Assembly: GCA_014381945.1 (NCBI GenBank)
Contig: JACNKQ010000024.1
Coordinates: forward strand, 1-64,000
Source: Actinomycetota bacterium
Lineage (GTDB): Bacteria; Actinomycetota; Acidimicrobiia; Acidimicrobiales; MedAcidi-G1
Length of the DNA stretch: 64,000 nucleotides
Direction of reading: 5' to 3'
Both the position numbers and the translations under genes were made by a program. Of this stretch, positions 1,586 to 40,161 are shown one piece after another (positions within the stretch are counted from its first letter, which is position 1; each line of letters opens with the position of its first letter). The notes below the pieces were generated by a model. It was not told the origin of the DNA, made no database searches, and worked only from the letters and a program-made list of their open reading frames with translations.

Positions 1586-2632
1586 ATGGAAGCCGAGATG
1601 CATGAACTCCATTCCCTGGACAGCGAGTCCCCTGAGGCGCTGTATGCGTTCCTGGCCGAACGCGAATGGGGCGACGGCCTGCCGGTCGTGGCGCCCACGG
1701 AGGCGAGGGTCGAGGCGATGCTGGGAGGAAACGCCGGCCTCGGTCCCGACGAGGTCCTCGCGGTCCTACCTCCCCGCGGTGGCGCAGCCACCCGCCGGGC
1801 AGTGGCCGTCAACGCCGTCATGGCCGGCTGCCCGCCCCAGGTGTTCCCGGTCGTGGCCACCGCGGTCCGGGCACTCGGCGAGCAGCGCCTCAACCTGCGG
1901 GGCGTCAACGCCACCACGCATCCGGTGGCGCCGCTGGTGATAGTGCACGGCGACGCCGTCGCCGATCTGGGCTTCAACGCCGAGGTCGGTGCCTTCGGAC
2001 CAGGCAACCGGGCCAACGCCACCGTCGGCCGGGCGGTGCGCCTCGTGCTGCTCCACGTGGCCGGGGCCCGTCCCGGCCCAGGCGACGCCGCCACCCAGGG
2101 CCAGCCGTCCAAGTACGCCTACTGCACCGCCGAGAACCAGGCGGCCAGCCCGTGGGAGCCCTACCACCACTCCGTGGGCGTCGACGCCCCGAGTGCCGTC
2201 ACGGTCCACTGCGGCGAGAACCCCCACAACTTCCACGACATGGAGTCCGACGACATCGGGCGCATCCTCGACAAGGCCGCCTCCGCCATGGCCACCTTCG
2301 GGGTCAACAACGCCTGCATCTCGGGCGGGGAGTGGTTCGTCGGCCTCTGCCCCGAGCACGCTGCCACCGCCGACCGGGCCGGCTGGGGCCGGGACGATGT
2401 CGCCTCCTACCTGTTCGCCCACGCCCGACGCCCCGCCCGGGAGTTCCGCCGGCAGTTCGACCTGCTGGCCTGGGCACCCTGGATGAACGACGCCGCAGAC
2501 GACGAACTTCTCCCCATGACCGAAGAGGTCGGCAACATCCGGGTATTCGTCACCGGCGGCGCCGGGAAGCACTCGTGCGTGATCCCATCCTGGGGCATGA
2601 CCCGCAGCGTCACATTGCCCCTGGAACCATGA
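1586..2632 (+). CDS. UGSC-locus partner protein, uncharacterised
   Basis: This 348-residue protein has no function I recognise. It is clearly homologous to the C-terminal two thirds of the thioredoxin fusion at 38599-40047. Both share a GDGLPVV/TDGLPVV-xPTEARV entry motif, an AVNAVMAGC motif, a GNRAN-(A/S)-T-(V/I)-GRAV block and a (C/L)-PEH motif. Conserved cysteines include the one in AVNAVMAGC. The ATG at 1586 follows a GGGGAGA ribosome site, and the conserved region begins about 25 residues later. The Sec-containing UGSC gene starts 13 bp downstream, so the two are probably co-transcribed and may work together. The recurrence of this pair elsewhere in the window supports a joint role. There is no signal peptide or membrane segment. 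Confidence 0.8.
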   Translation: MEAEMHELHSLDSESPEALYAFLAEREWGDGLPVVAPTEARVEAMLGGNAGLGPDEVLAVLPPRGGAATRRAVAVNAVMAGCPPQVFPVVATAVRALGEQRLNLRGVNATTHPVAPLVIVHGDAVADLGFNAEVGAFGPGNRANATVGRAVRLVLLHVAGARPGPGDAATQGQPSKYAYCTAENQAASPWEPYHHSVGVDAPSAVTVHCGENPHNFHDMESDDIGRILDKAASAMATFGVNNACISGGEWFVGLCPEHAATADRAGWGRDDVASYLFAHARRPAREFRRQFDLLAWAPWMNDAADDELLPMTEEVGNIRVFVTGGAGKHSCVIPSWGMTRSVTLPLEP

Positions 2633-2645
2633 GAGTCTTTCTCCT

Positions 2646-3209
2646 GTGACCATTTTGATCCAGGATCCAGCGGGCCCCCTAGCCGTGGGCGGTGTGCAAC
2701 TCGCCCCCGCCGTCCCGGCTCTGGTTTCCGGAAAGATCGGCGTGCTCGACAATGGCAAGCCCAACGCCCGGCTCCTGCTCACGAAGGCCGCCGAAGGACT
2801 GGCCACCCGCATCGGCGGCGAGGTGGCCAGCGTGATCGGCAAGTCGGACAGGTCGGGCAAGTCGGGCAGGGGCGCCCCGGGGAACAACGCCGCAACAGCG
2901 TGCGAGTCGCAGGTGCTGGAGGGCCTCAGCAAAGAGGTCCGGATCGTGCTGACGGGATCGGCCGATTGAGGATCGTGTACGTCGTGGAGTGTCCACGACC
3001 TCGTCGAACTCGAAAGGGCCGGCATCCCGACCGTGGTGCTCGCCACGACGCCGTTCGCCCACCTCGCCGCCGCCTCGGCGAAGAACCTGGGCCTGCCCGA
3101 TGCCCGTATTGTCGCCGTCCCGCATCCGCTGGGCGGCACGGACGAGGAGACCGTCATCGCATGGGCTGAGGCAGCCGTCGACGGAATCATCGAGGCGCTC
3201 GAACGATGA
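2646..3209 (+). CDS. UGSC-motif selenoprotein (in-frame TGA = Sec108)
   Basis: Read through the TGA at 2967-2969, this gene encodes 187 residues with Sec at position 108. The codons TGA GGA TCG TGT give Sec-Gly-Ser-Cys, the motif that names the UGSC selenoprotein family; its biochemical role is not established. The part before the TGA has a KIGVLDNGKPNA motif. The part after it continues as a regular fold (SVHDLVELERAGIP, then LPDARIVAVPHPLGG). Three observations support readthrough. The frame stays open for 79 codons after the TGA. It ends at a TGA overlapping the next start by ATGA. A perfect 8-bp hairpin follows the TGA. The GTG start at 2646 lies 13 bp after the partner gene. Treating it as two separate genes would cut the conserved motif in half. 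Confidence 0.88.
2981..2999 (+). promoter_or_regulatory. Bacterial SECIS-like hairpin of UGSC gene 1
   Basis: GTCGTGGA (2981-2988) pairs perfectly with TCCACGAC (2992-2999) around a GTG loop. The loop lies 20-22 nt after the Sec TGA at 2967-2969. This matches the known placement of bacterial SECIS stem-loops inside the reading frame, and the loop contains GU. The same loop bases at the same distance occur in the second UGSC gene. Confidence 0.8.
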
Positions 3210-4042
3210 GCATCGCCATAGACCTGAGCGGCAGGACCGCCATCGTCACCGGTGCGGGTGCCGGCATCGGCAGAGAGATCGCCCGTTGGCTGGCCAGGGC
3301 CGGCTCATCGGTCGCTGTCGCCGACATCCGGGCCGACAGGGCCGAGGAGACCGTGGCACTCATCCTCGACGAAGTGGTCGAGGTCGGAGCGAAGAGCGAG
3401 GTATTCGCCGTCGTAGCCGACGCCCGCGACGACGCTGGACTCAAGCGCATGGTGGAGTCGGCGGCGTATCAGCTCGACGGCCTGGACATCGCCGTCAACA
3501 ACATCGGCATGCTCGGACCGAGGGGAAGTGCACCCCTGCTGGACCTTGATGGCGAGGCATGGCGCGACGTCCTCGACCAGAACCTGGTGCTCACGGCGCT
3601 GTCCATGCGTGCGGAGGCGAAGGCCATGCTGGAATACGGATCCGGTGGGGGGGACGGGCAGCAGGTGATCGTCAACGTCACCTCCGGCGAGACCACGCGG
3701 CCTGCGCCGGGGCTCGCCGGCTACGGCGCTGCCAAGGCCGCCATCAACCACGTCACCGACACCGCCGCCGTCGAGTGGGGGCCGCTCGGCATCAGGGTGG
3801 TGGCGATCGCCCCCGGAACCACCCTCACCGAGACCGTCGCCGAGGCGCTGCCGCCGGACTACATCGACGCCGTAGTGGCCTCGACGCCGCTTCGGCGCAG
3901 GACCGAACACGACGAGTTGGGTCGCCTCGTGGTGTTCCTGGCCTCGGACCTTGCCCGTTGCATCACCGGTGGCCTCATCCTGGCAGACGCCGGTGCCAGG
4001 CTCGCGCGCAACCGGCCGGGGATCCCGGGGGGACCGGACTAA
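3206..4042 (+). CDS. SDR-family NAD(P)-dependent oxidoreductase
   Basis: This 278-residue classical short-chain dehydrogenase carries the cofactor motif TGAGAGIG at residues 15-22. It has the NNIG version of the structural NNAG motif and the catalytic pair Tyr173 and Lys177 in YGAAK. The start ATG overlaps the stop of the UGSC selenoprotein gene by ATGA, so translation is probably coupled and the three genes from 1586 form one operon. Its stop overlaps the stop of the convergent dehydrogenase at 4039. The substrate is not evident. An alcohol/ketone or hydroxyacyl-CoA substrate is likely from the surrounding CoA enzymes. Confidence 0.92.
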   Translation: MSIAIDLSGRTAIVTGAGAGIGREIARWLARAGSSVAVADIRADRAEETVALILDEVVEVGAKSEVFAVVADARDDAGLKRMVESAAYQLDGLDIAVNNIGMLGPRGSAPLLDLDGEAWRDVLDQNLVLTALSMRAEAKAMLEYGSGGGDGQQVIVNVTSGETTRPAPGLAGYGAAKAAINHVTDTAAVEWGPLGIRVVAIAPGTTLTETVAEALPPDYIDAVVASTPLRRRTEHDELGRLVVFLASDLARCITGGLILADAGARLARNRPGIPGGPD

Positions 4043-37502: not shown

Positions 37503-37994
37503 TCAGCCCAGGGCTGACGTTCCCGCATAGGGCGCGGGATCGCCGGCGGCGGGGATCTCGGGTCTGGACCAGGCGGTGAGCGCCACGAGTTCGTCGACCA
37601 CCCCGCGCCAGGCAACGGGGTCCCAGCCCTCGGCAGCACCGAGCAGGTGCCCGTCCTGGCGGATCGCCACGAGGGCCGGCAGGGTGTCGAGGCCTAGGGA
37701 GCGGACAAGGGAGCGGTCGGGGTCGGCCAGACCGAGGATCTCGTCAGCGAGGGGACCGAGGAACCGGGCAGCGCCGTCGCTGTCGGTGCCGGTGACGAGG
37801 TAGGCCACGCGCACGTCGGCGTCGCGGAACTCGTTGAGGATGCGTCGTGCCGTGTCGAGCAGCCATGAACTCTCGTGTGTGTAGGGGTCGAGGACCACGG
37901 CCGCCATCGGGAACAGCGTGAGCAGTTCCGAGAGGGGGAGCGGATCGCCACCGATCGGTTGGAGTTCGATGTCGAGGGAGGGGTCCTGTGCCAC
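37503..37994 (-). CDS. Thioredoxin-like protein lacking a CxxC
   Basis: This 163-residue protein appears to have a thioredoxin/TlpA-like fold. VVLDPYTHESSWLLDTARR occupies the active-site helix position, and LGLDTLPALVAIRQDG supplies a cis-proline-type turn. The redox CxxC is absent and no cysteine is seen in the protein, so it cannot be a simple disulfide reductase. It begins with GTG 37994, 77 bp after the UGSC selenoprotein stop. It may be a binding or adaptor partner in the same redox system. Fold assignment is by pattern and moderately sure. Confidence 0.65.
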   Translation of the reverse strand: MAQDPSLDIELQPIGGDPLPLSELLTLFPMAAVVLDPYTHESSWLLDTARRILNEFRDADVRVAYLVTGTDSDGAARFLGPLADEILGLADPDRSLVRSLGLDTLPALVAIRQDGHLLGAAEGWDPVAWRGVVDELVALTAWSRPEIPAAGDPAPYAGTSALG

Positions 37995-38071
37995 GAACGG
38001 TGACGCTAGCAAGGCACCGGCGCGGCGACACGGACGCGATCGCCCTGTGTCCCCCGCTGTACCTGGCGCTT

Positions 38072-38602
38072 TCAGGAACCGGTGAGGGCGGACACGAGTG
38101 CGTCGATGGCTTCGTCGGCGAGTGCCGCCATCTCGTCGTCTGTGCGGTCCTGGATGGGGTGCGCCACGAAGACGCTCGCCACGTCGAGTCCGAGGGCATC
38201 TGCCTGCAGGGCCGCAGCGTCGGTGAAGGTGTCGGAGGCCACGAAGACCCCCGGCACTCCCCTTCGTTCGAGATCGTCGATGTCGTGCACACTGCACGTC
38301 GTGCACGATCCTCAATCGGCGAGGGCCTCGATGACGGCATCGCACTGGATGGCGATCTCGTGGCGCAGGTCGGCCGGTGCAGGCTTGGTGAAGGTGGGCT
38401 TGGCGTAGCGGGCGACCGTTGCCCCGAGGGTGGTGAGCTGCTCTTCGACCCGGTCCAGGAACACGTCGCCCCGGGGCTTGGAGATGTCGAGCAGGCCGAC
38501 CGTCAGGCCGGACAGGGATGCGGGTCGGGCGGTGCGCTCCCTGGTAGCCGGCCGCTGTTCGGCTGTCGGGTCCAGGACGGTGGTGCCCTCGTGTGTGTTC
38601 AT
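38072..38602 (-). CDS. UGSC-motif selenoprotein, second copy (in-frame TGA = Sec97)
   Basis: Read through the TGA at 38312-38314, this gene encodes 176 residues with Sec at position 97 in Sec-Gly-Ser-Cys-Thr-Thr-Cys. It matches the first UGSC protein on both sides of the TGA: LTVGLLDISKP before it, and SVHDIDDLERRGVP then LGLD-xA-SVFVAHPI after it. The ATG overlaps the stop of the upstream fusion gene by ATGA. A hairpin with the same loop at the same distance as in copy 1 follows the TGA. Stopping at the TGA would leave an orphan 3' frame of 79 codons. An extra cysteine follows the motif (GSCTTC) that copy 1 lacks (GSCTSW). Confidence 0.88.
38284..38298 (-). promoter_or_regulatory. Bacterial SECIS-like hairpin of UGSC gene 2
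   Basis: On the coding strand CGTGCA pairs with TGCACG around a GTG loop lying 20-22 nt after the Sec TGA at 38312-38314. Loop bases and distance are the same as for UGSC gene 1, although the stem sequence differs. A further G-C pair lies beyond one mismatch. Confidence 0.76.
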
Positions 38603-40047
38603 GGGGTTATCTCCCTCGTGACGGGGTCGGAGCCGCCGGGGCCGTTCTTCCAGCCCCCGATGATGGCCGAGAACAGGCCGGCCGGCCCACCGGCGTGGAC
38701 GACGAGCAGGCCGCCGGGGCGGAACTTGGGCAGCCGGTGGCCGGCCAGGGCGACCGGGAGGCCCTCTTCGATGCCGTCGGCGCCGGCGATGATCCGGTCG
38801 GTGTCGAACATGAGGTGTTCGGCCAGTTCGGCCAGGAATCGGGTGCGGTCCCAGCCGGCGTCCCGGAAACGTGACATGTGCTCGGGCGACAGGACCAGCA
38901 TGGCGTCCATACCCATCACGATGCGGGGTGAGACGGTGCTGCGGAGGCTGGCGGCCAGCGAACGCGTGAGCGACTCGGGGCTGCGGCTGAGTTGGTCCAT
39001 GACCAGGCTGGGCCCTTCGCCGCAGAAGGCCGTGACCGTGTTCTGGCCGCTGCCGAAGCCCCGTTCCCCGGCGAGCGAGTCCCATGGGGAGCCTGCTTCG
39101 TCCTCGGCGAAGCAGAAGCCCTGCTTGCCGACGTGGCCGAGGGTGGCCCGGTCGATGCCGCCCGGGGCGCCGCCGCCGACGTTGCGGAGCACCAGCTGGA
39201 CCGCCCGGCCGATGGTGGAGTTTGCCCGGTTGCCGTGGCCCAGGGCGTTGATGCCCGAGTTCATCCCGATCTCGGCGGCGATGGGCCCGTTGACCACGAG
39301 GACCGGGCCGACCGACATCGTCGTGGCAAGCACCCCGTGCATGTTGAACTCGTCGGTGCAGACCGCCTCGAGTGCGGCCAGTACGACGGGCAGGTACTCG
39401 GGACGGCAGCCGGCCATCACTGCGTTGACGGCCACCTTCTCGACGGTGCATTCGGCGAGGTTCGGGGGTGCGAGGGCGACGACCTCGTCGGCGGATCGGG
39501 TGGTGCCCTCGAGCATCCGGACCACGCGTGCCTCGGTGGGCGGGACGACGGGGAGGCCGTCGGTCCAGCCGCGGTCGAACAGGGCCTCGTGGTCGTCCTC
39601 GAGTGCGGCGAACCCGACGCGTCTCGAGGCGAGGCCCGTTCCGCCGAACCTGGCCCGGAGTTCGTCGACCCGCCCGGGGTCGACCGTGAGGGACCCTCAG
39701 CCGGGCTTGAAGACCGGGAGACCGTCGCCGAGGCCGGTGACGCCGGTGAGTTCCTCCCAGTTGTCCCGGTCCCAGCCGACGGTGCGGGCGACCTCGACGC
39801 CGTCGAGCCGGCGAACGAGCGTCGGCACGGCATCGAGGTCGATCTGCCAGCTGGTGGCCAGGTCGGTGTCGTCGACCACCCAGTCGGCATCGGCCGGAAA
39901 GGCGGGGTTGTCCTGTGTGTAGACGACGAGGCCTGCCACCTCGGCGAGGTGTTCGAGCACCGGAACGACCAGCGAGCAGGCCGGGCAGGCCTCCTTGACC
40001 ACGGCCACGAGCCCGTCGGGGATCGTCGGGAGGTCGGGAGCACCCAT
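38599..40047 (-). CDS. Thioredoxin-UGSC-partner fusion, predicted selenoprotein (in-frame TGA = Sec117)
   Basis: Read through the TGA at 39697-39699, this is one 482-residue protein. Residues 1-116 form a thioredoxin-like domain with CPAC (VVKEACPACSLVVPVL) and a DAVPTLVRR cis-proline turn. The TGA sits in PG-Sec-GSL. The remainder is homologous to the protein at 1586-2632 (TDGLPVVPPTEARV, AVNAVMAGC, GNRANSTIGRAV, LSPEHM). The frame is the same across the TGA. No ATG, GTG or TTG occurs between the TGA and the conserved TDGLPVV motif, so a separate downstream gene would have no normal start. A perfect 8-bp hairpin follows the TGA. If termination occurs instead, the product is a 116-residue thioredoxin-like protein. 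Confidence 0.78.
39664..39684 (-). promoter_or_regulatory. Bacterial SECIS-like hairpin of the thioredoxin fusion
   Basis: On the coding strand GTCGACCC pairs with GGGTCGAC (8 bp) around a CGGGC loop. The loop lies 21-25 nt after the TGA at 39697-39699, close to the placement in the UGSC genes. The loop lacks the GU seen in the other three, so it is the least typical of the set. Confidence 0.62.
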
Positions 40048-40161
40048 CGCCGTCAGTCTCGCGCACGGCGCTCCCATGGGGGGTACACGGGTGGGGCGTC
40101 GGGGGTGAGATGGGTCACACTCCGTCTGGCGCATCGGGACCGTCATTACCCTCGTGCAGCG

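Follow-up and report, generated by a model that had tools for sequence, protein, structure and literature searches.

The closest described relatives of the genes analyzed here belong to the UGSC family (PF24696/NF041046), Sec-dependent proteins that are among the most abundant aquatic selenoproteins, with 255 sequences in GOS according to the available text of Zhang and Gladyshev (2008; PMC2398784). The same text describes a UGSC/Unknown_1 fusion in which UGSC is joined to an unknown domain, and UGSC appears in an inventory from 2026 that covers 119 families and subfamilies of prokaryotic selenoproteins (PMC13188914), although nowhere in the literature did we find a function stated for it. Two other groups offer points of comparison. 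One is glycine reductase and D-proline reductase (GrdB, PrdB), selenoenzymes with a thioredoxin-linked logic, and in the available portion of a review thioredoxin is given as the reductant of glycine reductase. The second is a set of proteins combining a thioredoxin fold with Sec, including Sec thioredoxins with a UxxC motif, SaoT, those with the HUIPC motif, and Sec.1/Sec.2.

The 64,000-nucleotide stretch of Acidimicrobiia DNA analyzed here (the window) encodes a UGSC-family protein directly downstream of a gene in which a thioredoxin domain is joined to a large second domain, referred to as the partner domain, across an in-frame TGA. A second pair of related genes lies elsewhere in the window. 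The features are as follows:

38599..40047, minus strand: predicted thioredoxin-Sec-partner fusion selenoprotein gene, 482 aa plus a TGA stop; residue 117 is Sec or Cys in 110 of 110 homologs
39739..40047, minus strand: thioredoxin domain, residues 1-103, with CPxC (C21/C24) and P75-T76; profile and structure match
39697..39699, minus strand: in-frame TGA, predicted Sec117, in the PG-[U/C]-GS motif; from the codon column across homologs
39664..39684, minus strand: putative SECIS hairpin, 8-bp stem and loop CGGGC; from conservation and covariation
38602..39600, minus strand: partner domain, residues 150-482, ~330 aa; AF2 pLDDT 91, pTM 0.92
38072..38602, minus strand: UGSC-family selenoprotein; PF24696 E 1.3e-45, NF041046 above cut-off
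38312..38314, minus strand: in-frame TGA, predicted Sec97 of the UGSC protein (ALAD-UGSC-TTCS)
1586..2632, plus strand: second, stand-alone partner copy, 39% identical and without a thioredoxin domain
2661..3221, plus strand: second UGSC selenoprotein, adjoining the second partner, with an in-frame TGA (GSAD-UGSC-TSWS); PF24696 E 4.8e-39

The fusion protein is genetically inseparable from UGSC but is a different protein, lacking the UxxC of that family and matching neither PF24696 nor NF041046. It also departs from UGSC/Unknown_1, as the available text describes it, in that a thioredoxin domain followed by its own Sec is joined to the partner domain; judging from the single chains of UGSC and partner described below, and within the limits of that text, Unknown_1 is probably the partner domain itself. 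The likeness to GrdB and PrdB systems lies in this logic and in a weak UGSC match to GrdB around the Sec, and none of the NCBIfam models for reductase subunits matches the partner domain; as regards a pyruvoyl subunit of the GrdE/PrdA type, this domain gave no Pfam or NCBIfam match and a weak fold match. As in the Sec thioredoxins and their relatives there is a thioredoxin fold with Sec, but here the CxxC remains Cys, and Sec follows ~93 residues later, past the fold, in a PG-U-GS motif ahead of the large second domain. The fusion protein is covered by none of the NCBIfam models (June 2026), and the 2026 inventory contains no thioredoxin/partner fusion with a PG-U-GS motif (PMC13188914). The correct reading would thus add a selenoprotein architecture missing from the current inventory, whereas standard annotation would give a truncated thioredoxin and a headless hypothetical protein.

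The initial annotation proposed that a single frame runs through the TGA at 39697-39699, and minus-strand translation bears this out: the junction reads ...LPVFKPG-U-GSLTVDPGRVDEL..., and the plus-strand letters at these positions are TCA. A start at 40047 is plausible, as homolog alignments begin at residues 1-14, and there is also an in-frame ATG upstream, at 40146. Of 61 related genomes, 44 have the thioredoxin-partner architecture (a contig end cuts one of these copies), and it is present in 80 loci from a species-level collection. Among 110 full-length homologs the codon in the Sec117 column is TGA in 53, TGC in 42 and TGT in 15, with no others, although some of these rows are the same genome drawn from both collections and the unique sequence contexts number 35 for Sec and 54 for Cys. 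The third codon position is the most variable both upstream and downstream of the UGA, which indicates translation both before and after it, and together with the restriction to three codons this places the observation far beyond chance. The proposal of one fused selenoprotein is supported accordingly. Its expected PGCGS counterparts of ~480 residues exist, every TGC or TGT homolog being a single uninterrupted protein of about that length, and no full-length homolog is encoded as two separate proteins.

The obvious alternative is that there are two genes, with the TGA acting as a normal stop for a 116-residue thioredoxin and a separate partner protein starting downstream. An ATG at residue 156, just ahead of the conserved motif, is available for this in many Sec homologs, and trxA and the partner are indeed separate genes in Arthrobacter. 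The initial annotation argued against such a start from the lack of any ATG, GTG or TTG between the TGA and TDGLPVVPPT; this is correct for the window gene, which has none in residues 118-155, but as a general argument it fails, because just 14 of the 53 Sec rows share the absence and most have an in-frame start in this stretch, often at residue 156. What counts against two genes in the family as a whole is that the Cys homologs are uninterrupted reading frames with the column confined to TGA, TGC and TGT, that residues 118-155 evolve as coding sequence, and that the SECIS is kept in the Sec homologs. We consider the two-gene reading scarcely credible. Global recoding of TGA as Trp or Gly was rejected, as the fusion gene and its neighbor both end in TGA and the aligned residue is Cys, and so was a sequencing error or pseudogene, as the identical TGA is present in dozens of genomes. 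On these comparative grounds it is nearly certain that the fusion gene encodes a single protein and that the UGA at 39699-39697 is decoded as Sec.

The genome carries Sec machinery. There is a tRNA-Sec, confirmed by ARAGORN, with adjacent selA and selB genes ~12 kb away on the same contig, and selD is also present. The selD gene contains an in-frame TGA of its own, and the selenophosphate synthetase is thus probably itself a selenoprotein. Co-occurrence of the fusion with selB across the 61 relatives (39 with both, 5 with the fusion only, 5 with selB only and 12 with neither; Fisher p 1.3e-5) is supportive, although it is confounded by kinship and the genomes with the fusion only are incomplete.

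A putative SECIS lies shortly downstream of the UGA and is conserved together with Sec. Numbering from the T of the TGA, nucleotides 16-23 pair with nucleotides 29-36, and this 8-bp stem is common to all 35 unique Sec contexts, with a loop region, CCCGGGCGG, that is nearly invariant (32 of 35). Pairing holds in 95.7% of stem cells in 32 distinct Sec rows, compared with 18-49% when the register is slid by 1-3 nt. Twelve stem cells are altered on both sides, and such double changes occur at one pair only, 21/31, where C-G (14) alternates with U-A (12) in a compensatory manner through coupled changes of an Asp codon (GAC/GAT) and a Val/Ile codon (GTC/ATC). At the protein level the stem reads VDPGR(V/I)D, a segment that the Sec forms conserve and that is free to vary in the Cys forms; the Cys homologs form a mean of 4-5 of the 8 stem pairs, and the loop is no longer kept. 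Because the folding energy (MFE) of 55-nt Sec windows is no better than that of shuffled sequences (z 0.03) and an Rfam search gave no meaningful SECIS match, the evidence for the element is comparative.

In a FastTree phylogeny of 94 sequences the Sec/Cys label is explained by two changes. With stand-alone partner domains as the outgroup Cys is basal, and the changes are one Cys-to-Sec gain in the family of the window gene and one reversal, in a genus holding both forms; support for the inner nodes varies, and the outgroup includes one long branch. Cys at residue 117 thus looks ancestral, and the SECIS appeared along with the gain of Sec. The origin of Sec from a redox-active Cys is known in bacteria, according to the available text of PMC1794560, and the locus offers a clean case in which Cys is replaced by Sec and a SECIS emerges within coding sequence.

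The two domains are of unequal familiarity. Residues 5-103 match PDB thioredoxins by profile (best E 7e-4), and structure comparison gives a thioredoxin fold with Z of about 9 and an rmsd of 1.9-2.4 A across 84-85 residues; the score for the thioredoxin equivalog TIGR01068 is 13 bits, below the curated cut-off of 96.8. C21, C24 and P75-T76 are invariant in 56 rows. PG-[U/C]-GS is likewise invariant, with Sec117 positioned after the thioredoxin fold and between the two domains. The initial annotation heard in PG-Sec-GSL an echo of the UGSC core; three residues are indeed in common, but position +3 is Leu, Met, Ile or Arg rather than the Cys of a UxxC, and common descent of this segment with the UGSC protein was set aside, as nothing beyond those three residues points to it. 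The partner domain has no Pfam or NCBIfam model across 45 members, with single stray matches only, and is labelled 'hypothetical protein' in annotated plasmid records. A class I fumarate hydratase fold was considered and rejected (best Foldseek rows E 2.5e-3, TM about 0.27, rmsd 16 A), and VIA comparison with the PDB gave a Z of about 5 at most, which is too weak for naming a relative.

The association of the partner domain with UGSC is close. In the window the UGSC start codon overlaps the fusion stop codon (ATGA), and a UGSC-family gene directly follows the fusion in all 107 loci with enough downstream DNA. The UGSC Sec codon is TGA in 106 of 106 readable loci, even where residue 117 is Cys. 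The second pair at 1586-3221 has its own in-frame TGA, which brings the 64-kb window to three predicted Sec codons, distributed over two related operons. Stand-alone partner genes adjoin UGSC in most loci examined, in either gene order, and in other phyla the partner is either a separate gene beside UGSC or fused to it. Such UGSC-partner single chains have an intact CGSC in one locus (L224) and a degenerate UGSC motif in three others; in these (L219:4416-6101, L220:4320-6044 and L177) the motif is now (A/G)DMGTS, without Sec or Cys. Two of the degenerate chains are near aconitase X and DUF126 genes, which hints at a non-redox branch of the family. Searching PDB sequences with UGSC gave no hits. 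The partner domain and UGSC very probably work together, and this provides a functional lead for UGSC, whose action would depend on the partner domain and, in several lineages, would also involve the thioredoxin system.

The thioredoxin link recurs outside the fusion. One example is Arthrobacter, with the order trxB-trxA-partner-UGSC, where trxA is ordinary and its position beside the partner marks a functional pair whose fusion occurs in the window. In Roseovarius the order is partner-UGSC-trxB, in Variovorax trxB precedes the partner at a distance of ~2 kb on the upstream side, and two more loci (L202 and L224) have trxB-like genes nearby. The cases of trxB beside the pair include one Acidimicrobiia locus. 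Overall, separate thioredoxin-system genes are near the partner and UGSC in 5 of 32 loci, so that the link is recurrent but not universal; around many partner-UGSC pairs a stretch of about 5 kb is free of thioredoxin genes, and a dedicated donor is correspondingly not universal. The Sec region of UGSC weakly resembles glycine-reductase B (TIGR01917; E 2.4e-4, with 20 bits where the curated cut-off is 602). Genes near partner/UGSC pairs include those for CoA transferases and TRAP or tripartite carboxylate transporters, which points to an organic acid as the probable substrate.

The best overall explanation, which we favor with some reserve, is that a selenoenzyme reductase resembling GrdB/PrdB has the thioredoxin-Sec module as its own internal electron donor. 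The partner domain and UGSC protein would together make up this reductase, each as one subunit, and the UGSC Sec would be its catalytic nucleophile, as is the case for the B proteins of glycine and proline reductase, to which UGSC is apparently related. Thioredoxin reductase would reduce C21/C24 of the fused thioredoxin, and these thiols would hand electrons to Sec117 (Cys117 in relatives) on the segment between the domains, which would in turn restore the UGSC Sec, oxidised in each turnover, to its reduced form within the partner/UGSC complex. Taken separately, a role of the fused thioredoxin as electron donor has slightly better than an even chance of being correct, and that of Sec117 as relay residue falls a little short of even. 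Since relatives have Cys117, sulfur can do the job of this residue, and Sec would be faster or harder to inactivate. The overlap of the UGSC start with the fusion stop further suggests that UGA readthrough may set UGSC output by selenium supply. The full proposal, a previously undescribed Acidimicrobiia selenoenzyme reductase with a thioredoxin-Sec-partner relay subunit and a UGSC catalytic subunit, selenium-gated through translational coupling, is tentative.

The same overlap lends itself to a different account, in which the UGA would work chiefly as a switch governed by selenium, with both the short thioredoxin and the full fusion being made, UGSC regulated by their ratio, and little catalytic role for Sec117. 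That UGSC is a selenoprotein at every locus with a readable codon would suit such regulation, yet many Cys117 relatives have the same operon and cannot switch, and the invariant PG-[U/C]-GS points to a chemical role; we regard this account as improbable. Somewhat less so, but still rather unlikely, is an ancillary function of the thioredoxin domain in protection or repair, such as the reduction of a UGSC selenenic acid, in place of stoichiometric electron donation. The many UGSC/partner pairs that manage without a local thioredoxin would be explained in this way, although the recurrence of trxB, once with trxA, beside the pair in unrelated phyla is what would be seen with a turnover donor.

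Several neighboring genes may also be noted. Downstream of UGSC there is a gene for a 165-aa protein with no Pfam match (37503-38000, minus strand), which is conserved close to the operon among 26 of the 80 relatives, followed by a luciferase-like monooxygenase gene (PF00296; 36580-37482, minus strand) that 12 relatives carry in their 3-kb flanks. Genes annotated as phosphosulfolactate synthase are near a UGSC/partner pair in Natrinema (L193) and Arthrobacter (L195), a possible clue to a sulfur-containing substrate.
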